Positions 2,994 through 32,279 of a stretch of 35,933 nucleotides of DNA are shown piece after piece. Below the pieces are notes generated by a model. That model ran no database searches. It saw only the letters and a program-made list of their open reading frames with translations, and was not told the DNA's origin. Both the position numbers and the translations under genes were made by a program. This DNA is from a virus: positions 1 to 35,933 of the IMG/VR virus record IMGVR_UViG_3300025570_000047; one strand, 5' to 3'. How positions within the stretch are numbered: the first letter of the stretch is position 1; every line of letters begins with the position of its first letter.

Positions 2994-3314
2994 CTATTTC
3001 TTTTTAGAACTTATTGCTTGTGATGTAAAGAACGCCGCAACGATACCAGCAACAGCAACAAAGTATGTTGGTGCCATATCGCCTAATGTAGCTTGAGCTT
3101 GATCCAAACCTGCTAGAGAGGCTAGAACAACAGCGAAGGGATAGAGCAACAAACCACCTAGTGCAAACCAGGTCATGTTTCTCTGCGCATCTCGCATAGC
3201 GTCTTGATCTTCAAGTTCTTTTCGTTTAAATTCAAGGTACATTGCTTCTTCTTCACTAGATACATTACCATCACCGTTAGTATCGGCTGGGTGAAATACT
3301 TTTTCTTCTGACAT
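2994..3314 (-). CDS. Small EF-hand protein with two membrane segments
   Basis: This 106-aa protein has three parts. Residues 11-22 (DTNGDGNVSSEE) are a textbook EF-hand calcium loop, with Asp/Asn at positions 1, 3, 5 and 7, Gly at 6, Val at 8 and Glu at 12. A charged helix follows (23-46). Two hydrophobic segments lie at about 47-70 and 82-102, before a short Lys tail. Only one EF loop is present, whereas cellular EF-hands usually come in pairs. The gene has a good Shine-Dalgarno (GGAG) just upstream and lies between the chaperone-like ORFs and the tape-measure-like gene. As far as I recall, similar proteins occur in marine T4-like phages without known function. A role in tail assembly at the membrane or in calcium-dependent DNA entry is speculation. 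Confidence 0.8.
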   Translation of the reverse strand: MSEEKVFHPADTNGDGNVSSEEEAMYLEFKRKELEDQDAMRDAQRNMTWFALGGLLLYPFAVVLASLAGLDQAQATLGDMAPTYFVAVAGIVAAFFTSQAISSKKK

Positions 3315-3324
3315 TATTACTCCG

Positions 3325-3492
3325 TTATTTTTGTTGAGCTTTCTGATCTTCTATGAAATCGACTAGCATATCCACATATAAGTCTCTTTCATATGGCAAT
3401 AAATCTTCTATATCCGCTATACTATATTTATGATGTTGAGCCATCGAGAAGACTGTTTTATAGTAATTCCCTAAGCTGGTGTGACTCAACAT
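3325..3492 (-). CDS. 55-aa ORF, likely the -1 frameshift extension of the gp26-like chaperone
   Basis: This ORF begins at an ATG that shares one base with the TAA of the gp26-like gene (TAATG) and encodes 55 residues including HHKYSIADIEDLLPYERD. It is acidic and predicted helical, with no membrane segment. No Shine-Dalgarno precedes it: the upstream bases are a T-tract. A -1 slip at T-TTT-TTT (3498-3504) would enter this frame through Ser-Leu-Met and yield a 289-aa fusion with the first 232 residues of the upstream protein. Expression by reinitiation at TAATG or from an internal ATG at codon 17 is the alternative. Short ORFs of this type follow the same gene in related phages, as far as I recall. 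By analogy with lambda T in the gpGT fusion, it would bind the tape measure protein. Confidence 0.78.
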   Translation of the reverse strand: MLSHTSLGNYYKTVFSMAQHHKYSIADIEDLLPYERDLYVDMLVDFIEDQKAQQK

Positions 3493-3504
3493 TAGAGAAA
3501 AAAA
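3420..3504 (-). promoter_or_regulatory. Candidate -1 programmed ribosomal frameshift signal
   Basis: Read on the - strand, codons TTT TTT preceded by T form a perfect X-XXY-YYZ slippery heptamer at 3504-3498. A 5-base spacer (CTCTA) follows, and then an 11-bp stem: AUGUUGAGUCA (3492-3482) with UGGCUCAACAU (3443-3433), all Watson-Crick except one G-U pair. A loop heptamer (TACTATA, 3465-3459) is exactly complementary to TATAGTA at 3426-3420, just beyond the stem, so an H-type-like pseudoknot is possible, although this second helix is almost all A-T. The distance, frame and direction of shift all fit. It is not experimentally shown here. Confidence 0.68.
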
Positions 3505-4193
3505 GTGTCTGTGCCCTCTAGTACGATTTCTTTACTCTCACCTGCGCTATTAATATAATCAGTCTGAAATCTCAGCTTGGGCATAGTATCGAAGAATTGC
3601 TGAAGAGCGTCAACAGTGGCACCAGGAAATGACTCTATGAAATCAGATATCTCTTCCTTAGAGAAATCTTTTAAGCTCTGAACTTCATCTCCTGCTACTA
3701 CAGATTCTATACATGAAGCTATTACATCAAACAACGATTCTGTGGGATGTTCCACTACTTTTAGAAACAGCGAAACTTCATCAAGTCTAGGATAACGCAT
3801 CATTAGATACATATCATCATTTACTGGGATTTCTTTTGTGTGTCCTTCTGGTATGACTAGGTGTATATCGTCAACCTCTAACTCTATTTCAATAGGACCG
3901 CCTGTTTCTGGATCACTGATAATAAATTCAATCTTATTATTGACCGACTTAGCTCTGACTTGCAACATAATATACTCCAAATCGAACATCGCTATGGAGT
4001 CAACATCTAAACCCGGGCAACAGTTTGTCGCAATTTGCCTCATTGCCAATACCATTTGATTGGGATCTTTTGATTCTTGAGCTATCAACAGAATCTTCTC
4101 TTCTTTTACAGTAAATGGTCTATACTTGACAGTCTCGTCTGTTGATGGCAACTTTGTCTCAAATAGAGGCAAATCAATCTTTGGCAATTTCAT
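3492..4193 (-). CDS. 26: gp26-like protein (T4 baseplate family PF12322), candidate tail assembly chaperone
   Basis: This 233-aa acidic protein has the layout of the T4 gp26 'baseplate hub' family. The start is a basic-hydrophobic segment, with KYRPFTVKEEKILLIAQE at about residues 23-40. DLEYIMLQVRAKSV (about 71-84) matches the T4 gp26 stretch LEYVIFQLRK, and a beta-rich middle and helical C-terminal half follow. T4 gp26 is 208 aa. In T4, gp26 is needed to assemble the hub. Here the gene ends at a slippery T-tract and overlaps a small ORF, and a candidate tape measure gene follows, the arrangement of lambda G/GT. I infer a chaperone role during tape measure folding or tail assembly. An AGGAGA Shine-Dalgarno precedes the ATG. 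Family membership is well supported; the chaperone role is inference. Confidence 0.85.
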   Translation of the reverse strand: MKLPKIDLPLFETKLPSTDETVKYRPFTVKEEKILLIAQESKDPNQMVLAMRQIATNCCPGLDVDSIAMFDLEYIMLQVRAKSVNNKIEFIISDPETGGPIEIELEVDDIHLVIPEGHTKEIPVNDDMYLMMRYPRLDEVSLFLKVVEHPTESLFDVIASCIESVVAGDEVQSLKDFSKEEISDFIESFPGATVDALQQFFDTMPKLRFQTDYINSAGESKEIVLEGTDTFFL

Positions 4194-6032: not shown

Positions 6033-6323
6033 CTATTCTCGCTCTAGTATTCGTTCAAGTTTTGTTTCTAGTCTAATGGTATCTAATTCTAGTATTCTTA
6101 CTCGATCAATGGCATCTTGAACTTCTTTTGGTGGTTTGAACTCATCTATCCACGTATCATTTTCTTCGATCTCTTCGAAGTTGATCTCTACTGCTCTCTC
6201 AAGGAATGCAATTCTCTCTTCTATACCAAAGTAAGCCCACACAGCAATGCCCGTGCCAAGAATCAATGATAGTAGATTCTTTAATGGTATGGTGAATTCG
6301 CTGTCTTCGTTGATCTTAGCCAT
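6033..6323 (-). CDS. Small membrane-anchored coiled-coil protein
   Basis: This 96-aa protein has a short acidic N-terminus, one strong hydrophobic segment at about 13-33 (PLKNLLSLILGTGIAVWAYF), and then a long charged helical region (34-96) with heptad-like Leu/Ile/Val spacing, e.g. RVRILELDTIRLETKLERIL. This predicts a type II or type III inner-membrane anchor with an oligomerising coiled coil. Similar N-terminal signatures (EFTIPL, WAYFGI) occur in marine T4-like phages as unassigned proteins, as far as I recall. Holin-like or i-spanin-like functions fit the topology, but there is no lipoprotein partner beside it. An exact late promoter box lies 31 bases before the start. Confidence 0.75.
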   Translation of the reverse strand: MAKINEDSEFTIPLKNLLSLILGTGIAVWAYFGIEERIAFLERAVEINFEEIEENDTWIDEFKPPKEVQDAIDRVRILELDTIRLETKLERILERE

Positions 6324-6835: not shown

Positions 6836-6843
6836 TATAAATA
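6836..6843 (+). promoter_or_regulatory. T4-type late promoter box for gp48 and the baseplate operon
   Basis: An exact TATAAATA lies 41 bases before the gp48 ATG. It faces the - strand late box at 6859-6866, so each polymerase must cross the opposite promoter as it leaves. Confidence 0.83.
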
Positions 6844-6858
6844 GCTATAACCAATCAA

Positions 6859-6866
6859 TATTTATA
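6859..6866 (-). promoter_or_regulatory. T4-type late promoter box for gp4
   Basis: TATTTATA on the + strand is TATAAATA on the - strand, 39 bases before the gp4 ATG. It lies downstream of the oppositely oriented box at 6836-6843, so the two promoters interleave. Confidence 0.8.
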
Positions 6867-13913: not shown

Positions 13914-14321
13914 ATGTTATTATCACCACGTACAAGATCACAAGAGTTCTTCTCGGACTTCACAAGGAATCTGGATCAGATACCAGGCCGCACAGACCTA
14001 TCTCGTATAGTGAATGAGAATGCTGTACGAGAGAGTATCTTTAATCTAGTTATGACTGATCGTGGTGAACGACTGTTTCAACCTAACATAGGGTGTGATA
14101 TAAGAGGATCGCTATTCGAGAACATTGATCCTAGTAGCATACTCATACTCAAAGAGAATATTAAATCTACTATAAAGACTTACGAACCAAGATGTAATCT
14201 ACGAGACGTAGAAGTATCAGCTAACTTAGATACAAACGAACTCTCAGTGAAGATTGTATTCAGTGTCATAAATAGTAACAATACATCATCACTTACAATT
14301 GATCTTAATAGGGTAAGATAG
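13914..14321 (+). CDS. 25: gp25 baseplate wedge protein (GPW/gp25 lysozyme-like fold)
   Basis: This 135-aa protein (T4 gp25 is 132) belongs to the sheath-initiating wedge subunit family, conserved in contractile tails and type VI secretion systems (TssE). The family core is NAVRESIFNLVMTDRGERLF at about residues 37-56, then QPNIGCDIRGSLFENID and IKTYEPRCNLRDVEV, in which the EPR triad is diagnostic (about 94-96). It sits directly before gp6, its structural partner, with two bases between them, and follows an exact late promoter. Confidence 0.95.
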   Translation: MLLSPRTRSQEFFSDFTRNLDQIPGRTDLSRIVNENAVRESIFNLVMTDRGERLFQPNIGCDIRGSLFENIDPSSILILKENIKSTIKTYEPRCNLRDVEVSANLDTNELSVKIVFSVINSNNTSSLTIDLNRVR

Positions 14322-16087: not shown

Positions 16088-18970
16088 ATGTCAGTTACTA
16101 TAAGAGATGATATCTACTCGGGAATAGCAGAACAGTTTCCTGACTTCTATAAGGAGAATGGCGAATTTCTTGTAGATTTTGTCAAGGCATACTATCAGCA
16201 TAATGATGCAACGAATGATCGTGATATTCCTAAGTTAAAGGACATTGACACGACTCTCACTACGTTTCTTGTTTACTATAAGAAGAAGTATCTTGCTGAT
16301 CTTCCTATTGACACAGCACTTGATGTACGGTTCATTATTAAGCACATCCAAGATATGTACAAGAGGAAGGGTACTCAACAGTCTCTTGAGCTTATGTTCA
16401 GACTCTTCTTTGATGAATCAATTGAGATATTCTATCCTAGTACTGCTATTCTACGGCCGTCAGACTCTATCTGGGGCGGTGACATATATCTAGAAATGAA
16501 GCCAGTATATACTGTAGATGATTATCCTATCAAGAAAGGGAATAGAATACGTGGCGACATATCGCTTGCTACAGCCTTTGTTGATGAGGTACTCTTTGTC
16601 AACTTCTCGGGCTCACTATCTCCTATCATTTATCTATCGAATATCGCAGGCACCTTCTCGTCTGATGACTCTATCGTTATCGTGACAGTTGATAATAACG
16701 GTGTCGAGTCAGTATTTAATGCTGGTAAGCTAATATCTGGATCCATTAGTTCGGTAACAGTGAGTCCACTGAATAGACTTCCTTCTCAGAGAGTGGGCGA
16801 TACGGTTAAGTTTAAATCTAGTCTTACTGGTATTGATGGCGAGGGAAGAGTTACAAAGACTTCTCAGACTCAGACCGGAAGGATTGAGTTTGATATTGAA
16901 GATGGTGGATTCGGCTATGTTGATCCTACTTCATTGGCTGCAACTAACAACGTCGGAATCAGTAATCAAGTAATGATTATCGATTCATCAAATACTCCTA
17001 CTAATGCTGACGGAACGACAAACAGCAACTATGTAGATTTTCTGCCGGGTGACGTTATCGTCTGTTCAGGCAGCAGTATCTCTTATACAGGATCGAGTGA
17101 CGCAGGTGCAACTCAGTACTCTGTCAGTGGATCTGCTAAAGTAATCGAATATGTTCACCCCCTCTTGTTTATAGAGTCTAATACATTAGGCGAAGTTCAA
17201 GCGTTTCATAGCAAGACTTATCCACAGGGTGGCAATGATATCAATCTTCTCGCAGCGGCATTTGCGAATCTAATTACGCCGAACAGCTACAATATACCTA
17301 ATGAGTATTTTAACTATACTAGAAACTTTAAAAAGACTGACGCAGTAGATGGTACAGGTAGCATTGCAGACTTTATGAATACTGGTACAGTGACGACAGA
17401 CGACTTTCAAGTTATAACGTCATACAGTACAGTACATTCTTCAACTGCGATAACACCAGTGACGGACTTTGTAGGATTGAACCCAGCGGCATATGATGCC
17501 TCCGAATGGGGCAGATATCTTTATAGGCTGTTTACACTTTATTCCAGGTTCGATATCTTTCCGAAGTTCGTTGTGAGTAGCACACCAGACTACTTACCCA
17601 GCAACACGGGATTCATAAGTCCTGGTAGCGGTAATCAGGCAGGCACGACAGTGACACTACCTAATTTGCCTAATCCAAGATTTACTATTGATAGACATAG
17701 AGGCGACTCTCCGCTTAGTGAAAACTCTCCTTATTCAGTGACAGTAGATAGCTTTGGCGCTTTCAACGGGTCAGCCTCATATGAGATTGGCGAATTATCT
17801 AACGTAGAGACAGTCACTCTGGTTATTGATCAGATCGGCGACTTCGTTGATGAGATTATCGATGAAAACAACAGCGGCACTGGAGATAATGGTGAAGATT
17901 ATGGAATGTCTGGTCCTTCTGCCGAAAACTATGATACTGCATTCAGAGACGCATTTGCCGCTATCACAGTAAAGATAGGCACAATCGACTCTTTGAAAAT
18001 ATTATCTACCGGTACTGATTATGAGAATAACGTCAAGTCTCTAGTGATACATGATAACATTGCTAAGTTCGGTAAGAGAGACATTATACTGACTTTCGAT
18101 ACGGTCGATTTCTTCTTAGAAGCTGGTGATATAATCACCCAGAATAGAACAATAGAAGACGTAGAGATTAACCAGTCTGGTAACATCACTGAATCTGGAC
18201 TAGAGGCTTTGGGTGCAAGCACTGTAGGTACAGGATATACTAACTCTCCAACTACTTTCACACTCACTACAGGTGGCACATCTCCATATACAGCGAAAGC
18301 TAAGTATATTAAGAGGGTCGATAACGGATTCTACTTTCGACCCCTTAGCTTTCACGGATTCGACGAAAATCTTCCAGTAAAAATAGTAAACACTAATAAG
18401 AATATCGCTACAGCGTCAACTGATCCAACGTCTTTGCCTATGGGCTCGAATGCTGTTGTCAGTGGAGTAGCATCTTACGAAGTGGGACAGATAGATGAGA
18501 TATCGATTATCAAAACTGGATATAGATATGATGATAAAGAATCTATTGAGATTGTTAATATAGACGAAGACAGCGCATATTATAATAAGACGGTTGCGAC
18601 TGCTTCAATTCGAACACTGAGCCAAGGAAAGACAGAAGGAAGATGGAAAACAAAAACATCATTTCTTAGTGACAAGACCAAGCGACTCCATGACAACAAT
18701 TATTATCAAGAATATTCATACGATATATCCTCAATCGTAGATCCTAAAAAATATGAGCCGTTGATTGAGGACACTGTCGGTGTTGCGGGCACGAAACTGT
18801 TCAGTACGCCTATGATAAATAGTGATAATAACTTAGATAGTGACCTAAGTGTTCAGTTTACATTTTATGAAATACGATCAGGTCAGCTTTTGACTACAGA
18901 TGGAGATTTCTATGTAGACGAAGACGGGAATAATATTATGGTAGCAACAACTACTGTAGCTCAAATATAA
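16088..18970 (+). CDS. 7: gp7-like baseplate wedge protein
   Basis: This 960-aa protein (T4 gp7 is 1032) lies between gp6 and gp8, as in T4. The N-terminal 140 residues are helical and well conserved in marine T4-like phages: QFPDFYKENGEFLVDFVKAY, then TTLTTFLVYYKKKYLADLPI and YKRKGTQQSLELMFRLFFD. Beta-rich segments follow, with repeated domains of the type GGFGYVDPTS, GTGYTNSPTTFTLTTGG and TDYENNVKSL. These short beta units recur at irregular intervals. gp7 connects the gp6 ring to gp8, gp10 and gp53 at the wedge periphery. Name by position and N-terminal similarity; the C-terminal domains are not T4-like. Confidence 0.78.
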   Translation: MSVTIRDDIYSGIAEQFPDFYKENGEFLVDFVKAYYQHNDATNDRDIPKLKDIDTTLTTFLVYYKKKYLADLPIDTALDVRFIIKHIQDMYKRKGTQQSLELMFRLFFDESIEIFYPSTAILRPSDSIWGGDIYLEMKPVYTVDDYPIKKGNRIRGDISLATAFVDEVLFVNFSGSLSPIIYLSNIAGTFSSDDSIVIVTVDNNGVESVFNAGKLISGSISSVTVSPLNRLPSQRVGDTVKFKSSLTGIDGEGRVTKTSQTQTGRIEFDIEDGGFGYVDPTSLAATNNVGISNQVMIIDSSNTPTNADGTTNSNYVDFLPGDVIVCSGSSISYTGSSDAGATQYSVSGSAKVIEYVHPLLFIESNTLGEVQAFHSKTYPQGGNDINLLAAAFANLITPNSYNIPNEYFNYTRNFKKTDAVDGTGSIADFMNTGTVTTDDFQVITSYSTVHSSTAITPVTDFVGLNPAAYDASEWGRYLYRLFTLYSRFDIFPKFVVSSTPDYLPSNTGFISPGSGNQAGTTVTLPNLPNPRFTIDRHRGDSPLSENSPYSVTVDSFGAFNGSASYEIGELSNVETVTLVIDQIGDFVDEIIDENNSGTGDNGEDYGMSGPSAENYDTAFRDAFAAITVKIGTIDSLKILSTGTDYENNVKSLVIHDNIAKFGKRDIILTFDTVDFFLEAGDIITQNRTIEDVEINQSGNITESGLEALGASTVGTGYTNSPTTFTLTTGGTSPYTAKAKYIKRVDNGFYFRPLSFHGFDENLPVKIVNTNKNIATASTDPTSLPMGSNAVVSGVASYEVGQIDEISIIKTGYRYDDKESIEIVNIDEDSAYYNKTVATASIRTLSQGKTEGRWKTKTSFLSDKTKRLHDNNYYQEYSYDISSIVDPKKYEPLIEDTVGVAGTKLFSTPMINSDNNLDSDLSVQFTFYEIRSGQLLTTDGDFYVDEDGNNIMVATTTVAQI

Positions 18971-19016
18971 CAGAGATTAAAAATGCAGATCGACAATATT
19001 AACGGGAATTAACTAG

Positions 19017-19871
19017 ATGGCTACATTACAGATTACAAGTGACGGTGATCCATATCCTGTGAAAGCAGGAGTTCCTTTATTGAATAACGGAACCACTAGA
19101 GTATTTCCAGATAGCTCGACTATACAGGATCAAGTCAATGACTTTTCGTTTAAGTATAGAGGAGGAAGTAACACTGTTGATCCCGAGGCTGTATCACTAA
19201 CTAGTCCTGTGGGGATTACTACAAATGGAGTAGTGATATATACCTCAGCATCTAGTAGCCTCACTTTACCAGTATCTTCTACAGCGGCACCCAGTAACTT
19301 CACATGGAACACTGTAGACAATCCAACTGAATTTCGAGTTGATGCTTGTGGTGGTAGACCTGAAACTGGTGGAGAGTATAGATATAGAAGTGGAGCATTC
19401 TATAAGAATGGAATGCAGAATAATTCGCAGTATATAGCGTCTACTACATATCTTAGCGCAACTGCTTTTGGTGGTGATAATACGAGACATCCTGACGGAC
19501 ACTCAAAGATATTGGGATTTGCATTTGACGGATATCCCATATACGGTCCCTATGGATACACGAGTGCGACTGAAGTCGGCTCAGTTTCAAATCCTGCTAT
19601 TCAGATGACAAGCTCATATAGAACGAAGTATAATGCAGAGGGTGGAAGAGGCTTTACATATGCTGAATTGCCAGCGGGGTCATTTGTAGAGGATTATGAA
19701 TATGTGTCTAGTCTAGGCACACTAGATGTATATAATGGAAGATTTTGTAAGACTCCTGATTACGATACAGGAACTTATGCATACTTCTTAACGTTCTCGC
19801 CTGGCAACTTAAATACTCCGGTATACCCATATATAATAGGTCCTAGCACTAGAGAGCAACGCCCAGTTTAA
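19017..19871 (+). CDS. YHYH-domain protein inserted between gp7 and gp8
   Basis: This 284-aa protein contains a YHYH domain (PF14240 type). The clearest parts are VDACGGRPETGGEYRYR (108-124), HPDGHSKILGFAFDGYPIYG (158-177), EDYEYV and NGRFCKTPDYDTGTYAYFLT near the C-terminus. In cellular YHYH proteins the name-giving tetrad follows NGRxxxxGxYHYH; here both His are Arg (YRYR at 121-124). The N-terminal 100 residues are beta-rich and probably attach to the baseplate. No signal peptide was found. It lies in the wedge operon, so it should be a virion protein. T4 has no equivalent at this position. Its biochemical role is unknown. Confidence 0.85.
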   Translation: MATLQITSDGDPYPVKAGVPLLNNGTTRVFPDSSTIQDQVNDFSFKYRGGSNTVDPEAVSLTSPVGITTNGVVIYTSASSSLTLPVSSTAAPSNFTWNTVDNPTEFRVDACGGRPETGGEYRYRSGAFYKNGMQNNSQYIASTTYLSATAFGGDNTRHPDGHSKILGFAFDGYPIYGPYGYTSATEVGSVSNPAIQMTSSYRTKYNAEGGRGFTYAELPAGSFVEDYEYVSSLGTLDVYNGRFCKTPDYDTGTYAYFLTFSPGNLNTPVYPYIIGPSTREQRPV

Positions 19872-29291: not shown

Positions 29292-32279
29292 ATGTCGAAT
29301 AAGAAGTTTACAGATTTACCGGAATTAGATGCCCTGGCGGATGCGGATTTGTTCGCCGTCACGGACAGTGACGCCACCACATCTAAGCACATAGTCGCTT
29401 CTAATGTTACTAACTTTATTCTATCCGATGTTAACGTAGCGTCAAAAGCTGCCACTATAGTTGATAAGATTAATCTCATAAATCCTACCCTCGGTAATAA
29501 TCTTGGTGCTCAACGATTGTGGATCACTGACGCATATCAGCCAGGAGAATACTTTTTAAACTATTCGAACCTGACTAATAAGCCTACGATACCTACAAAT
29601 ACTTCTACATTCGGCACTGTAGAAGGATTCACTAACGACGGCAATCTCGTATCACATGATAGTACTGCCAACCCACCAAAAATGGTGGTATCTGGCACTG
29701 GATCGACAACACAGGTAATGACATCCGATTATGTGAATGAAGGCGCTGTTAATCTATTCTACCAAGATCAGCGAGTTGACGATAGACAAGCCCTGAATTT
29801 TGGTAACCTGTTCAACACATACAGTAGCACATTTGATGGCGGTGAAGTTCGAGATAGCTTGCAAGATGTTCTAGGAACATTTCAAAACATTGCTGACAAT
29901 CAATCGAATGTTCTGAGAATATCAGATAAAAATGTAGAAGCTAACTTCTCAGCTGGCCAACTGATAAGAATATATGGCGCATCGGCAAACACTGCCAATA
30001 ACATAACAACCTCGCCCGGATTAACGCTGACAGTTTCGAATGGGGGCGGATTCACGGCTTCCTCAGGTACAAATTCTAAACTTTTTGAATATAGAGTAGC
30101 ACTCTTTAATCTTCAGACAGGCGAAGTAGGCCCACCATCAGCCACATCATCTGTAACAGTATATAATGAAGGCAATGATGTGTTGGGCGAATTCAATACT
30201 AATAATTTTATCAGTCTTGCACTCACAGGGCAATCAGGAAGCCAAGGTATTTTGGTGTATAGACAGGTTGCAGGTGCAGGTGGGTTTAAGCTACTGGCCG
30301 TATTGGGATCTAAAGATTTATTAGTCGCTTGGAAAGACTATCACACATTCGACTACACTAGTTGGTCTGGAAAAAACTCTACCGACAATACGTACATTAG
30401 CACCACACACTTTCCTGTAACTGTACACACTGGCGCACTTAGAGGTTGGACTGATGTGACTATATCTAGCATAAGCAGTCAGGCTACATCTTTCGACTTA
30501 AACTTCGACACAGCATACGTTTATGTGGACACTTCTGGCGGTGCTCAAGTAGCACACAACGACACAAACAAGATAAATGAAGCTATTGTGACGAAGGCGA
30601 CACAGGGTAGAAAGAGTGTAGAGTTGAACGCTAAGACGTATAACGTATCTCATATCGCAGTACCCAGTAACTTTGGTCTTATAGGAACAGCTAACATCAC
30701 ACAGATTAAGAAGCTGCCATGGGCGTCTTACGCTGTTAACGAGCCAGATAATTCGATCATTAGGTCTACAGTAACATCTAATGCAACGGCAATATCTCTT
30801 GTAGGCATAGATATGGACGGCAATATAAAAAGTCAATTCTTACATAACGATGATGAAGACGTTACTATAAACTATGCACTAGATTTTGGATTAAATCCAT
30901 CGTCGATTCTTTTGGATATGTGTAGAGTTAAAAATATAATTGGCGGTGGCGTTTACGCATCGTCTCCTGTTGAGTTTAAACTAACTACAAGTGAAGTTGT
31001 AAATAGCGGCGTGACAGACAGATGGTCATTCTCTCCTCTAATTGTAGATAATGGAACAAGCACACTCATTACTGGTAATAGATTTCAAAATTTCACAGAC
31101 TCTGTTGATGCTTCTGTAACAGCTCAAGGCGTTATAGCAAATAACGTGGTTAAGGCATGTGGCGCTGGCATATTCACTTACGGATCATCATTCTTAGTAT
31201 CTTCTCCTAACGTATTGATCGGTGCGGCTAACGAGTATCTATCTAGTCCAGACATCTTGAATAGTGAGTACGATTCAATCAATATAAATCTAGGCATAGC
31301 CGAATCGACTGCGCCATATGGTAGCTCTGCGCACGTATATCAAGAAAACGGAGCAGCTTTCAATCTGGCTCAAACTAGCATAGAAGCTCAGCCGGCAACG
31401 ATTGAGTATAGAGTAAAATTAATAAGGAAGCTCTCTAACGGAGATGAAGAAGTATACGGCAATCTAGTTGGCGCAGGCGCAAAGGGCATTGACGGAGTTA
31501 ACTGGTCGACAATCGCTAATGATGGATTCATACAAGGTAAACGATATAGAATAATCGCTCCAGGCGATACAAACTGGACAGCAATTGGTGCACCTAACGC
31601 CAACGTAGGCACATCATTTGTTAAGAACAATGTTGCTGTGACAGGTACCACAGGCACAGCAACTCCCGACGAGTTTGTTGGATATAGTGCTAATAAGCCT
31701 ATTTACATTAAAGATATTGATTCAGGCATGAATAGAGCATTAGGTCAATTTAAGTTTGAGATAAACGACACTGAAGGCAGTACTGCGAGCTGGACAAATC
31801 TGACTAGTGGAATATACTCTAAGGGTCAGCTTGCGACACTGTACGCTGGGCAAATAACAGCAGGGAATCATCCTGCTGGCTCTGCTCATGTCGGCGTAGC
31901 GTGGACAGCGAATTATAGAGGTTACGCTAATGCGGGTTCAATAATCGCATCGGGCACTTGGGATGCAACAGATACAACAAACCCTACATATACTGTAACT
32001 GTAACACCGTCTTCTTTAAATGTGCCTCTAGCTATTGGTCACGTTATTAGAATTGATGGACACGGCACTTTCGCTTTAGGTAGTGCCATTAATTATGGAC
32101 AAATAGCTAACATAGCCGACAGTGGCGATAATAAGATACTAGAAATCAAGTATTGGAAAGGCGGTTCAGGTGATGCTGGTGCTGGTGTTACTCCAGGCAA
32201 TGCTTCAGGCACACCAGCATCATACGGCACTATAAATATAATAGACGACTTCGTAATGGCTCAAGGGCTCATTAAATAG
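29292..32279 (+). CDS. Large tail fibre/spike with beta-helix-like body
   Basis: This is a 995-aa protein. The N-terminus (KKFTDLPELDALADADLFAV) is a type common at the start of phage fibres that attach to the baseplate. Residues 190-380 are beta-sandwich-like, with FEYRVALFNLQTGEVGPPSA. From about 420 to 650 the pattern (NDTNKINEAIVTKATQGRK, AKTYNVSHIAVPSNFGLIG, ITGNRFQNFTDSVDASVTA) resembles a pectate-lyase-type right-handed beta-helix, as in spike depolymerases. No catalytic residues can be assigned. Residues 748-794 carry the module shared with gp8 and the DUF4815 protein. The C-terminal 200 residues are Gly/Ala/Thr-rich. Receptor binding or polysaccharide recognition is inferred from the fold pattern only. 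Confidence 0.75.
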   Translation: MSNKKFTDLPELDALADADLFAVTDSDATTSKHIVASNVTNFILSDVNVASKAATIVDKINLINPTLGNNLGAQRLWITDAYQPGEYFLNYSNLTNKPTIPTNTSTFGTVEGFTNDGNLVSHDSTANPPKMVVSGTGSTTQVMTSDYVNEGAVNLFYQDQRVDDRQALNFGNLFNTYSSTFDGGEVRDSLQDVLGTFQNIADNQSNVLRISDKNVEANFSAGQLIRIYGASANTANNITTSPGLTLTVSNGGGFTASSGTNSKLFEYRVALFNLQTGEVGPPSATSSVTVYNEGNDVLGEFNTNNFISLALTGQSGSQGILVYRQVAGAGGFKLLAVLGSKDLLVAWKDYHTFDYTSWSGKNSTDNTYISTTHFPVTVHTGALRGWTDVTISSISSQATSFDLNFDTAYVYVDTSGGAQVAHNDTNKINEAIVTKATQGRKSVELNAKTYNVSHIAVPSNFGLIGTANITQIKKLPWASYAVNEPDNSIIRSTVTSNATAISLVGIDMDGNIKSQFLHNDDEDVTINYALDFGLNPSSILLDMCRVKNIIGGGVYASSPVEFKLTTSEVVNSGVTDRWSFSPLIVDNGTSTLITGNRFQNFTDSVDASVTAQGVIANNVVKACGAGIFTYGSSFLVSSPNVLIGAANEYLSSPDILNSEYDSININLGIAESTAPYGSSAHVYQENGAAFNLAQTSIEAQPATIEYRVKLIRKLSNGDEEVYGNLVGAGAKGIDGVNWSTIANDGFIQGKRYRIIAPGDTNWTAIGAPNANVGTSFVKNNVAVTGTTGTATPDEFVGYSANKPIYIKDIDSGMNRALGQFKFEINDTEGSTASWTNLTSGIYSKGQLATLYAGQITAGNHPAGSAHVGVAWTANYRGYANAGSIIASGTWDATDTTNPTYTVTVTPSSLNVPLAIGHVIRIDGHGTFALGSAINYGQIANIADSGDNKILEIKYWKGGSGDAGAGVTPGNASGTPASYGTINIIDDFVMAQGLIK
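32231..32238 (+). promoter_or_regulatory. T4-type late promoter box before the last gene
   Basis: An exact TATAAATA lies within the final codons of the preceding spike-like gene, 51 bases before the next ATG. Spacing is suitable, although the site is also coding (Thr-Ile-Asn-Ile). Confidence 0.55.

Follow-up and report, generated by a model that had tools for sequence, protein, structure and literature searches.

What does a small membrane protein with a calcium-type loop do among the tail genes of a T4-like phage? The question is raised by the window, i.e., the whole stretch of DNA analysed here, a virus record of 35,933 bases with T4-like genes, in which the product of one open reading frame, called X below, combines such a loop with two predicted membrane helices (Table 1). 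The results presented here indicate that X is more likely to belong to the host-bursting machinery than to tail assembly or DNA entry.

Table 1. Features of the window that bear on the role of X.
Feature	Position	Strand	Basis and remarks
X	2994..3314	-	106 aa, ATG at 3314; N-terminal calcium-type loop and two predicted membrane helices
Calcium-type loop, 12 residues, DTNGDGNVSSEE	3249..3284	-	X residues 11-22; pattern match and conservation
Long helix, residues 20-67	3114..3257	-	AlphaFold2; the loop is followed by the E-D-x-D...D-A-Q-R segment and TM1 (about 48-67)
TM2, about residues 81-101, small-residue-rich	3012..3074	-	AlphaFold2 helix 81-105
Basic C-terminal tail SSKKK, short	2997..3011	-	Charge counts; basic tail common across the X family
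gp51-like baseplate hub assembly catalyst	3325..3492	-	phrog_634, E 3.4e-22; 10 nt upstream of X
gp26-like T4 baseplate hub protein	3492..4193	-	PF12322, E 8.6e-57; phrog_150; upstream of X
Tape-measure candidate, 565 aa	1287..2984	-	Position and HTVC008M counterpart annotated as putative tail tape measure; 9 nt downstream of X
Exact TATAAATA	6859..6866	-	Upstream of the gp4-to-tape-measure gene run that contains X

Loop and membrane anatomy of X

The loop of X fits the 12-residue EF loop, with D at position 1, N at 3, D at 5, G at 6, V at 8 and E at 12. A glutamate at position 12 of an EF loop usually marks a preference for calcium over magnesium. The strict pattern is matched only once across the six frames of the window, arises in 23 of 200,000 residue shuffles of the X protein and occurs in one of 2,806 other called genes of related loci; this rarity makes a chance origin of the loop improbable. 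The Pfam family EF-hand_5 aligned with residues 6-22 of the window X at 16.6 bits, below its cut-off of 25.9, and was found at E up to 1 in 51 of the 57 X representatives (best 3.9e-7; the cut-off was not applied individually). Dockerin_1 was matched weakly by three of the 57 (best E 0.1), and the best NCBIfam match was XopAW (2.6e-4), to which the window X aligns through its loop region.

The AlphaFold2 model of X, built from 52 sequences (mean pLDDT 84.6, pTM 0.51), contains helices at residues 20-67, 71-79 and 81-105. No entering helix precedes the loop in this model, where the first helix starts at residue 20, and only 4-7 residues lie ahead of the loop in several homologues. X therefore appears to carry a DxDxDG loop with an exiting helix and not a complete EF-hand, and the loop would cap a long helix that continues into TM1. 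The perfect EF-hand loop described in an earlier, sequence-only reading of this DNA thus holds for the canonical loop and not for the full EF-hand. The two membrane helices of that reading agree with the predicted helices and the hydropathy peaks; the peaks of the Melnitz homologue start at residues 54 and 81, and the CRP-810 homologue has a single peak at the threshold used.

Averaged over the 57 representatives, the segment between the helices holds 0.42 K/R, the part before TM1 3.02 (with 4.35 D/E there) and the tail 2.32, and the tail exceeds the inter-helix segment in 53 of them. This charge bias favours a predicted topology with both ends in the cytoplasm (N-in/C-in). The fold search against the PDB gave nothing useful and no known fold, and one viral relative was retrieved (A0A516M8G9, E 1.1e-5).

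The X family and conservation of the loop

In four viral contig scans, at least 583 to 598 relatives of X per scan were confirmed among the matches listed. The family of X, which has no name, is widespread in aquatic phages, and the combination of loop and membrane helices, which the sequence-only reading had supposed to be unusual for a phage, is not unusual there. The strict loop pattern is kept in 245 of 248 X loci (211 distinct proteins); each scan covered its best 80 loci, beyond which looser relatives without the loop are possible. The exceptions are L247, whose loop residue 1 is unread, and two loci with a replacement of Gly at position 6, L150 and L165. Among the 57 representatives (below 80% identity), loop positions 1, 3, 5 and 12 are kept in all 57 (one with Ser at 5), Gly at 6 in 56 and V/I/L at 8 in all 57, while the residues ahead of the loop are variable. 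Within X, residues D38, D42, A43, Q44, M47, W49, G54 and P59 are invariant or nearly so.

Homologues that keep the membrane part and lack the loop were sought, and none were found among the best 80 loci per scan. A search with the membrane part only returned, among its best 80 loci, four that were already known (including L165) and 76 new ones, all 76 of which have the loop. The X profile found X in four of 11 phage records (Melnitz-3, HTVC008M, CRP-345 and DC31) and had no match in the remaining seven, i.e., Mosig, four cyanophages and two Vibrio phages. The homologue from DC31, a freshwater Limnohabitans phage, has the loop DINGDGTVSDEE and a diverged membrane part, and is 31.7% identical to the homologue L162. 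A perfect loop in a freshwater phage weakens the idea that the protein responds to calcium-rich seawater. Likewise, the proposed connection with a nearby SNase-like enzyme was abandoned, as an SNase cluster occurs in only 24 of the 248 loci and no specific link with X was found.

X in lysis gene cassettes

The T4 tail cluster is absent from the fetched flank of 160 loci (81 after 90% non-redundancy), a set that still includes at least three T4-like contigs (L020, L058 and L214). The neighbours of X at +1 and +2 in the 160 loci include many holin-like and endolysin families; the gene caller picked some antisense ORFs among 150 X neighbours, so the neighbour family counts are lower bounds. Within 2.5 kb of X in the 81 loci, an endolysin lies downstream in 31 and upstream in two, and a holin-like gene downstream in 30 and upstream in none. 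Both genes are present in 27 of the 81 loci, either in 34 and neither in 47; for the 40 loci with 2.5 kb on both sides, the numbers are 18 with either and 22 with neither. These lysis counts are also lower bounds, because the search relied on no more than four endolysin and two holin-like profiles and many contigs are cut short. The clusters from which the profiles derive are themselves neighbours of X, each named by one or two members. Cluster 82, made up of seven antisense ORFs, is left out of the profiles, and the counts for the 81 and the 160 loci are identical with and without it.

The 30 holin-like genes comprise 24 of the phrog_2524 type and six of the PF11351 type. As the function of phrog_2524 is given as unknown in PHROGs, its share of the count weighs against the holin reading of X. 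The phrog_2524 protein (L132:6303-6686, cluster 13) behaves in a holin-like manner, having C-terminal hydrophobic segments and lying between X and the endolysin, and over 29 residues at the N-terminus it is similar to the PF11351 cluster (hhalign probability 94.5). Another neighbouring family, phrog_32327 (L117:1681-2154, cluster 6), has a length of about 157 aa and a membrane helix at its C-terminus; it precedes X by one or two genes in 45 of the 248 loci and in DC31, and is possibly a further lysis-module protein.

X is followed by a spanin-type lipoprotein and an M15 endolysin in CRP-345, and by a PF11351 holin (3-TM) and a GH108 endolysin in CRP-810, while the order in freshwater DC31 is phrog_32327, X, an Rz-like spanin and an endolysin. 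Judged by gene order, X fills the putative holin slot of a spanin-endolysin cassette in the cultured phages CRP-345 and DC31. Three called proteins of CRP-345 of up to 200 aa have at least two hydropathy peaks, namely X, the candidate spanin and, at the opposite end of the genome, a protein of 56 aa; the fetched stretches of DC31 encode six such proteins, of which only X stands beside the endolysin. An endolysin and/or spanin gene thus lies close to X in CRP-345, CRP-810 and DC31, as a downstream endolysin does in 31 of the 81 loci, whereas around X the lysis profiles used had no match in any of the 88 loci that have T4 tail genes, the window's own setting included. In CRP-207, gp73 (L083:3292-3873) is annotated as a putative lysozyme; it has an N-terminal membrane segment and a long coiled-coil-like stretch, and no lysozyme family match was obtained for it in Pfam or PHROGs.

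As the lysis module is the factor that recurs across phage types, the best explanation of X is that of a late lysis membrane protein, to which we assign a rough probability of 0.58; it would most likely act as a holin or as the partner of one (an antiholin or co-holin). For such a protein we infer late expression, an N-in/C-in topology, an oligomeric pore and calcium binding. Against a holin stands the window itself, which offers only a tail setting, together with the silence of the lysis profiles in the 88 loci. The 47 of 81 other loci with neither gene, the origin of the profiles in X's own surroundings and the lack of any holin family match above a cut-off count against it as well. In CRP-810, moreover, a recognised 3-TM holin adjoins X, which would not be needed as the holin there.

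A possible, though less probable, sub-case of this explanation, with odds that overlap with it, is that X acts as an antiholin or timing partner of the downstream 3-TM holin-like protein. The strictly downstream position of the holin-like gene is in line with this, as is the gap between the two genes, a 4-nt overlap in 15 of 30 cases that suggests coupled translation. However, a PF11351 holin was found only in CRP-810 of the six records searched and is absent in CRP-345, DC31, CRP-207, Melnitz-3 and HTVC008M, so in those five X has no such partner.

Comparison of Melnitz and HTVC008M

X is the sole protein of up to 250 aa with at least two hydropathy peaks found to be common to Melnitz and HTVC008M, in a simple comparison by hydropathy and blastp that could miss a diverged pair. 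The available part of the Melnitz paper names no holin; it proposes that the curli proteins CsgGF, an outer-membrane pore, are analogous to a pinholin and that gp67 is the endolysin, and reports no lysin-like genes other than gp67 (PMC9004378). In contrast with that part of the paper, the Melnitz record contains a second endolysin-like gene (L261:42214-42741; phrog_938, E 2.3e-22), annotated as a cell wall hydrolase. HTVC008M (L250) encodes a 75-aa membrane/coiled-coil protein (117049-117276) and a 46-aa lipoprotein-like protein (117442-117582), which look like an Rz/Rz1 spanin pair; the putative pair adjoins a gene whose Melnitz relative is annotated as DUF1353. DUF1353 is also the cluster of the gene upstream of X in L020.

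Comparison with holin families and other known systems

No match above the cut-off was obtained for X with the holin families in Pfam, PHROGs and NCBIfam. PF11351 is absent from its matches, including the 25 families listed for the representatives, and the profile comparison of X with the neighbouring clusters 13, 51, 82, 6 and 10 was not significant. Pfam Phage_holin_3_6 was touched weakly by 15 of the 57 representatives (best E 2.1e-4), and the unrelated DUF2157 (5.2e-4) and MscS_TM (1.9e-3) came nearly as close. The searches with PF11031 (11 records) and phrog_2524 gave no match, and their controls were likewise silent, which makes them uninformative on absence.

Class II holins (S21 type) have two membrane helices and an N-in/C-in topology. 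X shares with them a length near 100 aa, two predicted helices, a basic C-terminal tail, a K/R-poor inter-helix segment and, in CRP-345 and DC31, the putative holin slot in a spanin-endolysin cassette; it differs in having no match above any holin cut-off and in its conserved N-terminal calcium-type loop, a feature that is not known from class II holins. The T4 holin gene t sits among tail genes, away from the endolysin, a setting comparable to that of X in the window. Its product gpt, however, combines a single membrane helix with a periplasmic domain, compared with the two predicted helices of X. In CRP-810 and a further nine cluster 51 loci, the gene immediately after X encodes GTA_holin_3TM (PF11351/phrog_3427), but this is a separate family, and X aligns to cluster 51 without significance. 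DxDxDG calcium loops outside true EF-hands are known from dockerin-like contexts; as in those, the loop of X has an exiting helix and no entering one, whereas X is a phage protein in which a single loop is fused to a two-helix membrane hairpin.

In the literature searched, no report of a calcium loop or EF-hand in a holin was found by title, and the titles on EF-hand, holin and phage mostly concerned endolysins or lysins. The EF-hand protein described in the available part of a paper on an EF-hand and a lysis cassette is unrelated to X (PMC5795418). The main texts of the HMO-2011, CHUG-phage and pelagimyophage papers contain no word beginning with "holin" or "EF-hand" (PMC9038755, PMC11288001, PMC7029224).

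X among tail genes

The window carries an ssDNA-binding protein gene (272-1198, with a DNA match to cyanophages) and the tail-tube cap gene on the plus strand, and gp4, gp2, tail tube, gp26 and gp51 on the minus strand. The placement of X between a presumed chaperone pair and a tape-measure gene was borne out by the family matches of gp26 and gp51 and, for the tape measure, by position and the HTVC008M annotation; the 565-aa candidate itself has no direct family match in Pfam or PHROGs.

Among the 88 loci with T4 tail genes, many of them on short contigs, gp51 lies less than 100 nt upstream of X in 75, gp26 less than 400 nt upstream in 82 and a match to the tape-measure profile less than 100 nt downstream in 52, with all three neighbours in 40. 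By the X profile, X is absent at the gp26-gp51/tape-measure junction of S-SM2, P-SSM4, S-PM2, S-B64, C48C1, ACG-2014f and MED4-213. All seven junctions read are Kyanoviridae-type, and the profile had no match anywhere in the genomes of four of these seven relatives, nor in that of the pelagiphage Mosig. The gene after gp51 in S-B64 is unannotated and an open frame of 831 aa is present there, while the arrangement at the tail-hub region differs in Vibrio phage K476.

PF12322 (gp26) was sought in ten X-bearing records picked for size and found in six. In three of these six, the sole X is distant from gp26: by about 80 kb in L020 (G001; X 30,117-30,419, gp26 at 110,758), about 25 kb in L058 (G006; X 18,833-19,132, gp26 at 43,898) and about 11 kb in L214 (G002; X 106,811-107,128, gp26 at 118,026). 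In all three, a large ORF (476, 470 and 555 aa, respectively) comes straight after gp26 and gp51, and no small membrane gene intervenes. X is therefore not tied to the tail slot, and the slot works without X. The order gp26-gp51-X-tape measure is genuine, yet not all T4-like phages share it.

In Mosig, the slot occupied by X in HTVC008M and Melnitz contains an unrelated 90-aa membrane protein (phrog_10198; L345:5893-6165, record 103992-104264). Matches to this protein were found in 348 records including Mosig, of which 346 are Vibrio phages. In the two regions read, no lysis gene is annotated directly beside its homologues and one peptidase lies about 4.5 kb off; without an adjoining lysis gene, this lead does not prove a lysis role.

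The tree of X (58 rows, 110 columns; 17 of 55 inner branches open and seven starred) gathered the majority of the members with a lysis context into a single large group, from which DC31, L194 and L216 stand apart, and placed the T4-slot members in more than one group. At least six label changes were counted for lysis and nine for T4, and four for lysis against T4 alone when the unlabelled rows were left out; the labels of L084 and DC31 were set by hand. The tree is too weak to tell whether the lysis or the tail setting came first.

The tail neighbours could also be taken at face value, X then being a membrane-bound factor of tail or baseplate-hub assembly, or part of the virion and ejected alongside the tape measure; its place in lysis cassettes elsewhere would be a case of re-use. 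The close spacing to gp51, gp26 and the tape measure suits such a role, and the T4-tail setting in more than one part of the tree makes a tail-linked function possible. We nevertheless consider it doubtful, because the seven junctions without X, the unrelated protein in Mosig and the three contigs with a remote X and an empty slot suggest that the hub can be built without an adjoining X. The same absence or remoteness of X from related T4-like tail clusters, together with its presence in lysis cassettes elsewhere, led us to drop, as the preferred reading, calcium sensing during adsorption or DNA entry, which the sequence-only reading had put forward.

Late-promoter-like sites and expression

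The motif TATAAATA, which we take to be the T4-type late promoter consensus, occurs with up to one mismatch at 70 sites in the window compared with a chance mean of 75, i.e., not above chance, so the late-promoter reading of the site upstream of the gene run with X is argued by position alone. Two exact sites on opposite strands lie at 6836-6866, between the divergent gp4 and tail-cap genes, and further sites stand just ahead of the window genes at 13914 and 29292. The window also encodes, at 6033-6323 (minus strand), a 96-aa protein (phrog_20984, E 1.4e-6) with an N-terminal membrane segment and a coiled-coil-like tail. It has a weak relationship to phrog_18771, to which an HTVC008M gene near csgF that Melnitz shares belongs.

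T4 has small two-helix inner-membrane proteins such as Imm, and X, with a comparable size and anatomy, might serve in superinfection exclusion or in the takeover of the host membrane, its metal site then being structural. Phage exclusion genes are usually early, whereas X stands in runs of structural and lysis genes, which are normally late, and has a late-promoter-like site upstream, making this role improbable. Finally, the loop could be an acidic motif that arose by chance and has no role with metals, for which the sub-threshold Pfam score and the missing entering helix could be cited; this is very improbable given ligand positions that are kept while the residues ahead of them vary and a loop present in every new locus retrieved through the membrane part.

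Proposed mechanism and significance

If X is a late lysis membrane protein, it would build up in the inner membrane late in infection while its loop stays empty, as free cytoplasmic calcium is low. A first membrane leak would let calcium enter and fill the loop; the filled loop may stiffen the helix between loop and TM1 and favour the open, assembled state, and sharp lysis would follow. In a tamer version, the loop would be an always-filled structural site for calcium or magnesium. In T4-like pelagiphages, the X gene may sit among tail genes, away from the endolysin. The full proposal, that X founds a family of calcium-gated holins in which leak calcium bound by a cytoplasmic DxDxDG loop, fused to TM1, would cause cooperative opening and through this positive feedback set lysis timing in phages of SAR11, OM43, Roseobacter and freshwater hosts, and that it would also be the missing holin of T4-like pelagiphages, is speculative and unlikely.

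How phages lyse SAR11 and OM43 hosts is unsettled, and X is a direct holin candidate for them. Other accounts of lysis timing are framed in terms of membrane potential and the accumulation of protein; if a holin-like protein had a metal-binding loop, an ion signal would come into play as well.
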